Assembly (NCBI GenBank): GCA_022361255.1
Contig: JAKSBG010000451.1
Location: 1-41,012, forward strand
DNA from: Verrucomicrobiales bacterium
Lineage (GTDB): Bacteria; Verrucomicrobiota; Verrucomicrobiia; Verrucomicrobiales; DEV007
Length of the DNA stretch: 41,012 nt
Reading direction: 5' to 3'
Of the stretch, positions 38,840-41,012 are shown in pieces. Numbering within the stretch: the stretch's first letter is position 1; each line of letters starts with the position of its first letter. Both the position numbers and the translations under genes were made by a program. The notes beneath the pieces were generated by a model, which saw only the letters and a program-made list of their open reading frames with translations, did not search any database and was not told the DNA's origin.

Positions 38840-39181
38840 ATGGGTAAGCAGCATAACAAAGTCGAAAAGCGCCGTCGCCGCGAACGTTACATCAAGCGGA
38901 AGAAGGAAGCCGTGAAGGCTCGTATTGCCTTGAGCAAGAAAGCGCCGAAGAAGACAGCTCCGAAAAAGGAAGCCAAGCCTGAGAAGGAAGAGCCGGTCGA
39001 GGAAGAAGTGAAAACCGACGCCGAAGCAGCCGCTCCCGAAGAGGAGGCTCCCAAAAAGAAAGCTGCTCCGAAGAAGAAGGCTGCAGCTAAGAAAAAGGCA
39101 GCGAAAAAGAAAGCAGCCACCAAGAAAGCAGCGAGTAAAAAAGCTGCGGAAAAGAAGGCTGATTCCGACGAAGAGGAGTAA
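38840..39181 (+). CDS. histone-H1-like Lys/Ala-rich protein
   Basis: Probable nucleoid protein of 113 residues. The N-terminus is extremely basic (MGKQHNKVEKRRRRERYIKR), followed by a mixed acidic region (PEKEEPVEEEVKTDAEAAAP) and a C-terminal tail of repeated K-K-A-A blocks (PKKKAAPKKKAAAKKKAAKK), ending in an acidic SDEEE. The tail matches eukaryotic-type linker-histone C-terminal tails and the Hc1-like proteins of Chlamydiae and relatives. It would be expected to bind DNA non-specifically. ATG 38840 is chosen; an earlier in-frame extension overlaps the response regulator. It ends at a strong terminator 40 bases downstream. Confidence 0.78.
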   Translation: MGKQHNKVEKRRRRERYIKRKKEAVKARIALSKKAPKKTAPKKEAKPEKEEPVEEEVKTDAEAAAPEEEAPKKKAAPKKKAAAKKKAAKKKAATKKAASKKAAEKKADSDEEE

Positions 39182-39221: not shown

Positions 39222-39261
39222 ATGACGGTTGGAGATGGATACATCCCAACCGTCATTTTTG
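39222..39261 (+). terminator. terminator of the H1-like gene overlapping the next start codon
   Basis: ATGACGGTTGG (39222-39232) and CCAACCGTCAT (39246-39256) form a perfect 11-bp stem, with TTTTTG following. The 13-base loop holds the ATG (39235) of the NYN gene. On its own it would end the H1-like transcript 40 bases past the stop. Confidence 0.85.
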
Positions 39262-39681
39262 TTGGTGGATGGAAACAATATCATCCACGCCTGGGATGAT
39301 CTCCTTGCCCTGCACCGAAAGCGCAGGGGGAGTGCCCACGCAGAACTGATTTCGCGCTTGGAATCGTATCGGGATTTCAGCGGCGACCGCGTCGTGATCG
39401 TTTTTGACGGACGGGGAGCGACCACTCAGGAGGAACGTCGCGAGAGCGGTCTGCAGATTTTCTATACCGGCGATGCGAACACGGCCGATGATATAATCGA
39501 GCGCCTCGCAATTCGGTATGCGAAAGAATACGACATCACCGTGGCAACCGACGATCGGGCCGAGCAGGATATCGTGATTGGGGCCGGCGGTTCAGTTTTG
39601 TCACCGTTTGCCCTTCGGGAAAAGCTGGATGCGACAGAGCGTGCCATGCGGGACTGGATTGACCGGCACCGGAAGCGCTGA
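39235..39681 (+). CDS. YacP-like NYN-domain protein (putative RNase)
   Basis: Cytoplasmic protein of 148 residues with a NYN/PIN-like nuclease fold of the YacP type. Landmarks are FLLVDGNNIIHAWDD (first acidic cluster), DRVVIVFDGRG, and the helix DIIERLAIRYAKEYDITVAT with DDRAEQDIV. The N- and C-terminal acidic residues (Asp12, Asp69-like, Asp104-like) fit a metal-dependent RNase site. The ATG at 39235 sits in the loop of a terminator hairpin. Alternative in-frame starts are TTG 39229 and a TTG/GTG just upstream of VDGNN; all lie within or beside the hairpin. Confidence 0.82.
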   Translation: MDTSQPSFLLVDGNNIIHAWDDLLALHRKRRGSAHAELISRLESYRDFSGDRVVIVFDGRGATTQEERRESGLQIFYTGDANTADDIIERLAIRYAKEYDITVATDDRAEQDIVIGAGGSVLSPFALREKLDATERAMRDWIDRHRKR

Positions 39682-39726
39682 GGATTTCTGCTTGCGAATC
39701 CGGAGAAGAGGTTGAGTCTAAGGCAC

Positions 39727-39819
39727 ATGTTTCTCCAGAAATATCGCCTACTGATCGAAAACCGTCCGGCCTCCAGCTGGAAGGGTTTCATGGTTGTGGC
39801 GTCGCGCGGGGAAATGTAA
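39727..39819 (+). CDS. possible 30-residue leader ORF before the MFS gene
   Basis: An ATG at 39727 opens a 30-codon frame (MFLQKYRLLIENRPASSWKG then FMVVASRGEM) ending in TAA at 39817-39819. AAGG lies about 4 bases upstream of the ATG. The peptide is amphipathic-looking and resembles nothing I know. It lies in the leader between the NYN gene and a terminator that ends 4 bases before the MFS start. It may be a regulatory leader peptide or a chance frame. Confidence 0.35.
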   Translation: MFLQKYRLLIENRPASSWKGFMVVASRGEM

Positions 39820-39853
39820 CGGGATAGAAAATTTTTTACCATCCAACCATTCG

Positions 39854-39889
39854 GCCCCACATGCGATTTCGCTTGTGGGGCTTTTTTTT
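39854..39889 (+). terminator. intrinsic terminator directly upstream of the MFS gene
   Basis: GCCCCACA (39854-39861) pairs with TGTGGGGC (39874-39881), extended by GC/GC around a T-T mismatch, with a GATTTC loop, and followed by eight T (39882-39889). The MFS ATG is at 39894. Because no promoter fits between, the hairpin probably acts as an attenuator or the MFS start is read through it. Confidence 0.9.
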
Positions 39890-39893
39890 GCCC

Positions 39894-41012
39894 ATGAAGA
39901 CAACTTCCGATACCAATTCGATTGCGAACGAGTCGCTGCTGGAACAGCTGCGGGCACTTCCCCGTGTCGTGTGGATTCTCTTCGCCGGACTCTTCATCCA
40001 CCGCTTCGGAACGTTCGTGGTTCCGTTTCTTACTCTCTACCTCAAAGACCTCGGGTATTCTGCATGGGATACCGCTGTCGTTTTTGCGTCGATGGCTGTC
40101 GGCGGCGTAGGGGCAATGGTGCTCGGTGGCAGACTGTCTGATCACATTGGCAGAAAAAATACGATGGGCCTCGCCCTTTTCGGTGGAGCTGTGTCCATGC
40201 TGCTGATGTGGCAGGCCGGTGACATACCCGAATACGTGGTTTCGGCGTTTCTCGTCGGAATTACGCAGGGCATGTATCATCCCGCATCGAATTCACTCCT
40301 CGTCGATGTCGTTCCGGAAGAGCGCCGGATCACAGCCTTCGCCGTTGTCAGGTGGGCGGTAAATCTCGGATTTGCCGGGGGAATGGCCGCCGGTGGCGTT
40401 CTCGCGGAAAAGAACTTCGCCTACCTTTTTGTCGGTGATGCCGTGACGTCGGCAGCGTTTGCCGTCATTGCCGTTCTGATGCTGCCGCACGGAGTGAAAA
40501 CCAGCCGGGAACAGAGCCGCTGGTCTGTTGCGCTGCGCGACATGGCAGGTAATCGACATTTCGTAGCGTTTTTCTTCGCCAATTTTCTCACGACCGCTCT
40601 TTTCTTCCAGTGGGGGAGCAGCGTGACGCGGTTGCTGAGTGATCTCGGATATGGAAAGTCCGTCTATGGATGGCTGATGGCGATGAACGGCTTGATCATT
40701 GCGTTCTGCGAAATCCCGATCAGCCAATTGACCCGCCGGAGATTTCCTCCCCCGGTGATTGCTCTGGGATTTCTTCTTTGCGGTGTCGGGATGGGCATCA
40801 ATGCATTTGCGGTTCCCGGAGTGGAGTCAGCTCTTCTCATTGTCGGCGCAGCCCTCATCGTTTTCACCCTCGGGGAAATGATCAGTCTTCCCATCGCCGG
40901 AGCGTGGGTAGCCTCACTCGCTCCCGAAAAAATGCGGGGACGCTACAGTGCCGGAGTCGGTCTCACTTGGAATCTCGGGCATGCGGTGGCTCCGGGAGCG
41001 GGGTTGTTATTG
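39894..41012 (+). CDS. MFS transporter (partial, cut by window end)
   Basis: Major facilitator superfamily membrane protein; the first 373 residues are present with no stop. After a short hydrophilic start (MKTTSDTNSIANESLLEQLR) the first helix begins at VVWILFAGLFIHRFG. The motif-A loop between helices 2 and 3 reads GGRLSDHIGRK. About ten helices are visible up to the edge. The HPASNSLLVDVVPEERR region and the MRGRYSAGVGLTWNLGH stretch resemble drug/metabolite efflux-type MFS proteins (DHA-like); the substrate is unknown. The start is 4 bases after a terminator U-run and no Shine-Dalgarno is seen. Confidence 0.9.
   Translation, partial: MKTTSDTNSIANESLLEQLRALPRVVWILFAGLFIHRFGTFVVPFLTLYLKDLGYSAWDTAVVFASMAVGGVGAMVLGGRLSDHIGRKNTMGLALFGGAVSMLLMWQAGDIPEYVVSAFLVGITQGMYHPASNSLLVDVVPEERRITAFAVVRWAVNLGFAGGMAAGGVLAEKNFAYLFVGDAVTSAAFAVIAVLMLPHGVKTSREQSRWSVALRDMAGNRHFVAFFFANFLTTALFFQWGSSVTRLLSDLGYGKSVYGWLMAMNGLIIAFCEIPISQLTRRRFPPPVIALGFLLCGVGMGINAFAVPGVESALLIVGAALIVFTLGEMISLPIAGAWVASLAPEKMRGRYSAGVGLTWNLGHAVAPGAGLLL

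Follow-up and report, generated by a model that had tools for sequence, protein, structure and literature searches.

A candidate translation-sensing transcription attenuator in front of an MFS transporter gene in Verrucomicrobiota

INTRODUCTION

At the whiB7/wblC attenuator of Actinobacteria, full translation of an upstream ORF (uORF) leads to a Rho-independent terminator, and disturbed translation leads to an antiterminator and readthrough. This attenuator is reported to respond to several inhibitor classes and to amino acid starvation (PMC11550727, PMC12121999). The ilvB1 leader of M. tuberculosis is described as folding into two exclusive structures; a ribosome that has reached the stop codon hides about 26 nt, which blocks the antiterminator, the uORF is rich in branched-chain codons, and the target is biosynthetic (PMC13236596). 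In B. subtilis, bmrB is a leader ORF that, together with a terminator, precedes the multidrug ABC transporter genes bmrCD, which are induced by ribosome-targeted antibiotics; the cited account gives three alternative stem-loops, a terminator within the ORF, and a requirement for bmrB translation in induction (PMC4191407). At B. subtilis vmlR, stalling on a uORF of three codons turns off the terminator before a resistance gene, with an anti-antiterminator and polymerase pausing reported to take part and uORF initiation needed for induction (PMC9226507). The uORF of an S. meliloti DUF1127 gene is reported to monitor translation in another way (PMC12218461). In the openly licensed PMC literature that we searched, no attenuator of Verrucomicrobiota was described as sensing translation.

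Here we analyze a leader located before an MFS transporter gene of a Verrucomicrobiales bacterium. The window, meaning the whole stretch of DNA analyzed (41,012 nt), is one entire contig. As a set, this leader and its relatives have the elements of a two-state uORF attenuator: an ORF near the antiterminator strand, a terminator before the gene, and a competing antiterminator (the window alone gives p = 0.57). The uORF, terminator and antiterminator logic is like that of whiB7/wblC, although the response of the Verrucomicrobiota leader is a prediction. A transporter gene (MFS_1) lies directly behind the switch, whereas whiB7/wblC controls a transcription factor gene; the likeness that we draw is one of mechanistic class, not of descent. 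We propose the same geometry as at ilvB1, but there is no branched-chain run, only an over-represented Trp. Nor does the locus resemble an amino acid biosynthesis attenuator, as it has no regulatory codon run, a single Trp is usual, and the target is an MFS gene. The layout is like that of bmrB-bmrCD, except that the transporter is of the MFS type and no anti-antiterminator was found in the leaders tested (see below). As at vmlR, stalling on the uORF would switch off the terminator. Unlike bmrB and vmlR, the model proposed here would not need leader translation for induction.

RESULTS

The NYN and MFS genes are separated by 212 nt (NYN stop codon, 39679-39681; MFS ATG, 39894). The features of the locus are as follows.

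39229-39681, + strand: upstream gene for a YacP-like NYN domain protein (PF05991, E = 1.4e-32), outside the switch
39692-39719, + strand: candidate promoter TTGCGA-16-GAGTCT, tentative and weak, picked by eye alone and absent from the promoter scan
39727-39819, + strand: leader ORF of 30 codons (ATG, 39727-39729; TAA, 39817-39819) with one Trp codon (W18)
39796-39816, + strand: predicted antiterminator 5' strand (GUGG, GUCGCG, GGGG, AAUG), formed by the 3'-terminal codons of the leader ORF; from the nascent-RNA minimum free energy (MFE) fold and comparative complementarity
39848-39872, + strand: predicted antiterminator 3' strand (CAUU, CCCC, UGCGAU, UCGC), overlapping the left arm and loop of the terminator; from the nascent-RNA MFE fold
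39854-39881, + strand: intrinsic terminator hairpin, core dG of -13.9 kcal/mol
39882-39889, + strand: terminator U-run, followed by GCCC and, after this 4-nt gap, the MFS ATG
39894-41012, + strand: MFS transporter gene (PF07690, MFS_1, E = 1.3e-40), the putative regulated gene, running off the contig end

The original prediction for this DNA, made from its letters, had described a 30-codon frame in the NYN-MFS gap and a terminator U-run ending 4 bases from the MFS ATG, and both are present. The candidate -10 element ends 7 nt 5' of the small ORF's ATG, and the nearest relative, L009, carries a similar TTGCAG-16-GACTCT. A promoter scan found nothing on the + strand, and the transcript of the NYN gene may run into the switch region.

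Upstream of the NYN gene, 38840-39181 encodes a Lys/Ala-rich, histone-H1-like protein without a Pfam match. The terminator hairpin of this gene (GATGACGGTTGG...CCAACCGTCATTTTTG, 39222-39265) leads directly into the first codons of the NYN gene (TTG TTG GTG); hence, the NYN gene also has a terminator at its start. A histone-H1-like gene likewise stands beside a response regulator gene and the MFS gene in two other genomes (G022 and G026; loci L004 and L012).

We folded the window's leader with and without the right arm of the terminator. When the right arm was left out, the antiterminator was the MFE structure (nascent folds of 39722-39872 and 39790-39872); once it was included (39722-39889), the terminator beat the antiterminator. 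The sequence GCGGGG (39806-39811) is complementary to CCCC (39855-39858) in the left arm of the terminator, and the competition between the two that had been predicted earlier is borne out by these folds. A second pairing, of ATGGTTG (39790-39796) with CAACCAT (39844-39850), had also been proposed. Both motifs are in the sequence, but the pair is missing from the predicted folds and CAACCAT is missing from the L009 leader; we therefore dropped this hairpin and give it no role. Compared with shuffled sequences, the nascent-RNA fold of the window was no better (z = -0.54; second fold, +0.36). Taken by itself, the window showed no significant complementarity to the arm (p = 0.49; p = 0.57 in a second test). 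The evidence for the antiterminator is comparative; the window taken alone proves little.

MFS homologues were present in 20 of 74 genomes of the family (E <= 1e-60) and in 85 of 386 genomes of the order (E <= 1e-50). From a contig-database search we used the best 80 of 404 relatives, 22 of which duplicated earlier loci. Named records among these best 80 of 404 came from Verrucomicrobiales, Opitutaceae, Pedosphaera, Chthoniobacter, Haloferula, Rubritalea and others and, outside the phylum, from Acidobacteria, Chloroflexi and others. The oriented loci numbered 145 (87 plus 58, the latter being the best 80 of 404 minus the 22 duplicates), from which loci with less than 200 nt upstream were then dropped. 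One MFS homologue (G082:C31:14040-15113) contains a single in-frame TAG, for which a pseudogene or a sequencing error is a possible explanation.

We scored a terminator where a hairpin shorter than 32 nt with a dG of -8 or lower had its U-run end between -110 and +45 of the MFS start anchor. Of the 21 family loci, 20 have such a terminator before the MFS gene. It also stands there in 67 of 85 usable loci from the genome search (18 lack it) and in 28 of 39 usable Verrucomicrobiota loci among the best 80 of 404 contig-database relatives (11 lack it). The same rule found none before the 16 MFS homologues from outside the phylum among those best 80 of 404. The 95 loci with a terminator fell into 62 sequence clusters, and removal of two gapA-type clusters (17 loci) left 60. 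In one group of loci (L056, L058-L060, L062-L064, L067, L068, L070, L077, L083, L085, L089-L093), the MFS gene lies directly behind gapA, and a strong palindromic terminator stands just before the MFS gene without a leader ORF of its own.

Does a metabolite riboswitch or a bound protein govern this terminator, the small ORF being there by chance? A terminator/antiterminator layout is indeed common to riboswitches. However, 62 sequence clusters in 95 leaders offer no conserved aptamer, and the ORF recurs with its stop codon at the antiterminator strand. At the gathering threshold, Rfam matched only two tRNAs in the window, nothing in its leader, and nothing in 20 loci; we accordingly rejected a riboswitch, a T-box or any other known Rfam RNA family. 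The original prediction could match the leader to no known class; the riboswitch that it had offered as one option is not supported, given so many sequence clusters. We regard a riboswitch or protein-bound leader as very improbable.

A leader ORF was called where an ATG frame of at least 18 codons had its stop codon 15 to 75 nt before the left arm of the terminator. Fifty-four of the 60 leader clusters have one, compared with 17.3 +- 3.4 in dinucleotide shuffles and 6 of 58 when the rule was applied 400 nt upstream as a control. The median ORF has 43.5 codons, and the median distance from its stop codon to the left arm is 34 nt. A terminator without a rule-passing ORF occurs at L018, L048, L076, L162, L164 and L168 and at 17 gapA-type loci. 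By the same rule, L018 (G061) has a terminator and no leader ORF, and the related L019 (G060) has both; L018 thus looks like a natural loss of the sensor.

The GC content of the leader ORFs is 0.572, 0.514 and 0.642 at codon positions 1, 2 and 3, and the excess of GC3 over GC2 is 0.128, against 0.013 +- 0.015 in shuffles. This codon structure is coding-like, and the ORFs are presumably translated. Is the encoded peptide then a conserved small protein? Among 16 comparable close pairs (18 listed), changes numbered 100, 109 and 111 at codon positions 1, 2 and 3 (about 466 each), with no sign of purifying selection on the peptide. The equal change across codon positions led us to reject a conserved small protein. 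We conclude that the reading frame is kept and the peptide sequence is not.

Taken as a set, the regions before the small ORFs carry a promoter signal (Stouffer 6.8; control region, -0.8). The signal often lies just 7 to 18 nt before the ATG, and at L066, L081, L096, L107, L124 and L129 the -10 element ends 7 to 24 nt before the leader ORF's ATG. With the promoter-like signal so near the ATG, the 5' UTR may be nearly absent, and the leader ORFs may be translated in a nearly leaderless manner.

To measure antiterminator potential, we compared the segment 18 to 100 nt before the left arm with the arm and its preceding 15 nt. Over the 54 leaders, the end of the ORF is far more complementary to the left arm than in shuffles (Stouffer z = -17.4), and a control region 218 to 300 nt upstream gave 0.27. 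Individually, p was below 0.05 in 31 leaders and below 0.01 in 19, and 0.05 or above in 23. Foreign arms did as well as the native arm in 18% of swaps and foreign leaders in 20% (50% expected); since so few swaps match the native pairing, this pairing is locus-specific. An unbroken Watson-Crick run of at least 6 with the left arm is found in 35 of 54 leaders; shuffling gives 7.3 +- 2.5 and exchange of the arms 10.8 +- 2.9; 43 different arm heptamers are represented in this test.

The antiterminator 5' strand has a median position of -27 to -4 from the end of the stop codon, and in 49 of 54 leaders it overlaps the stop codon or the 30 nt preceding it, the position at which a terminating ribosome would hide it. 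We simulated this effect; a leader that masking made too short was scored as none. When no ribosome is present, 48 of 54 leaders have the left arm paired with an upstream partner. A ribosome at the stop codon gives the terminator hairpin in all 54, with the upstream partner still free in 5; when the ribosome sits just 12 codons ahead of the stop codon, 37 of 54 leaders, not 48, form the antiterminator. A segment further upstream that pairs with the 5' strand was not found (Stouffer 0.11) in the 39 leaders, out of 54, that had p <= 0.1, a strand of 35 nt or less and enough upstream sequence, and an anti-antiterminator of the bmrB/vmlR type was rejected. The anatomy, its conservation and the locus-specific complementarity are computational observations. 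Comparative evidence of this kind argues that the Verrucomicrobiota attenuator is real. In several Verrucomicrobiota groups, the ORF, antiterminator and terminator recur in the same order and spacing before MFS homologues; the original prediction had named a lack of conservation before MFS homologues as grounds for refutation, and this check did not refute it. Its proposal of transcription attenuation with leader-peptide control is supported.

The ORF and terminator rules were fixed after the family leaders had been read, and later loci (from the contig database and from another order) and a genome scan are therefore fairer tests. The yield of further loci was low (16 of 387 in the phylum, 11 of 303 in another order). 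Of the 11 from another order, which are outside the main statistics and two of which are near L172 and L174, relatives among the earlier loci, 8 have both terminator and ORF; L208, L209 and L212 have neither. We also scanned 1.24 Mb (three genomes and the window) for the full layout, defined as a terminator, a downstream ORF starting within 110 nt, a small ORF and a run of at least 6. Three places matched, two of them at this MFS gene (in G026 and G161) and the third inside a gene that is sulfatase-like by eye; the rule, with its run of at least 6 and 110-nt limit, misses the copies in the window and in G027. Since the matches fall mostly at the MFS gene, the layout goes with that gene and is not a general trait of these genomes.

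Might the hairpin be an ordinary terminator that ends the transcript coming from upstream, or that of a gene for a small protein, while the MFS gene is transcribed from a separate start? It is not unusual for a terminator to lie near a gene start: this was so for 45 of 294 ORFs, a background taken with a crude ORF caller whose output leaves out the G026 MFS gene and for which the 1.24-Mb scan is the better substitute. In the 17 gapA-type loci, moreover, the terminator simply follows gapA. However, only 4 nt lie between the U-run and the ATG in the window, and at two loci, L004 and L012, a separate terminator ahead of the leader already serves the upstream gene. The locus-specific complementarity is likewise at odds with an ordinary terminator, and the peptides, being unrelated and unconstrained, argue against a protein gene. 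We think an ordinary terminator improbable.

Trp occurs in 47 of 54 leader peptides. Shuffles give 27.5 +- 3.5 (stop-free shuffles, 29.1 +- 3.2), and the two alternative frames give 34 and 25. The median distance from the Trp to the stop codon is 21 codons, and a ribosome paused at that point would not cover the antiterminator strand. Met, Lys and Tyr likewise exceed their shuffled values, and Pro, Cys and Ser fall below theirs; the choice of the longest ATG ORF inflates Met and may pick the wrong start or frame, as seems by eye to be the case in L028 and L146.

Could the switch instead answer to Trp specifically, through a stall at the Trp codon caused by a shortage of charged tRNA-Trp or by a Trp arrest peptide, with the MFS protein serving Trp or aromatic metabolism and not general drug efflux? 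Besides the excess of Trp over shuffles and other frames, all 8 ORFs of the further loci contain Trp, though two of those loci are near relatives of earlier ones. A sub-threshold match to the Rfam trpB motif (23.8 bits; threshold, 59) we count as chance. Against a Trp-specific response, the Trp is usually single, not tandem, and is lost between close relatives (L012 versus L004, L021 versus L020, L120 versus L116). In L180, the one neighborhood read by eye, no trp gene was seen next to the MFS gene, the weak similarity of the MFS protein is to drug exporters, and a rare single codon would equally suit a general sensor as the place where ribosomes slow down. A Trp-specific response is therefore unlikely in our judgment. 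We read Trp as a favored slow codon, which is no proof of Trp sensing.

The nearest solved structures to the MFS protein are NorA (E = 1.2e-12) and LmrP (3.9e-7), and its matches to NCBIfam drug and tetracycline exporters are weak, all below cut-off. Its resemblance to NorA, LmrP and Tet proteins is thus weak, and on that basis we consider it a probable efflux pump.

DISCUSSION

We propose that the leader is a ribosome-mediated two-state transcription attenuator that is on when leader translation fails, and we put the probability of this reading at roughly 0.85. From the sequence comparisons we infer translation of the leader, the on/off logic, the inducing signal and the efflux function. Transcription would begin just upstream of the leader ORF. 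A ribosome reaching the stop codon would cover the last codons of the ORF, which are the antiterminator 5' strand; with that strand covered, the terminator arms would pair and transcription would stop 4 nt short of the MFS gene (off). With a ribosome stalled or slow in the ORF, or not loaded at all, the 5' strand would be free to capture the left arm of the terminator, and RNA polymerase would continue into the MFS gene (on). As the on state would arise only if translation of the ORF were incomplete, the signal would be failure to finish the leader. Ribosome-targeting inhibitors are the most likely inducers; a shortage of charged tRNA at the usual Trp codon is possibly another.

A broader reading, which we offer as tentative and somewhat doubtful, is of a family spanning the phylum Verrucomicrobiota in which the peptide drifts and a Trp usually lies about 20 codons before a stop codon borne by the antiterminator. 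Such leaders would act as general translation meters with Trp decoding as the slow step, placing an efflux pump directly under translation status.

Because the peptide drifts and the stop codon and antiterminator stay together, the attenuator would be a clean natural case for asking which leader features general translation sensing requires. Named carriers of the MFS gene among the best 80 of 404 relatives include Chthoniobacter flavus Ellin428, Haloferula and a Prosthecobacter debontii MAG, and the proposal can therefore be tested in culture. If it is true, a phylum known mostly from metagenomes has a widely conserved built-in switch, and a NorA/LmrP-like transporter would switch on upon ribosome inhibition.
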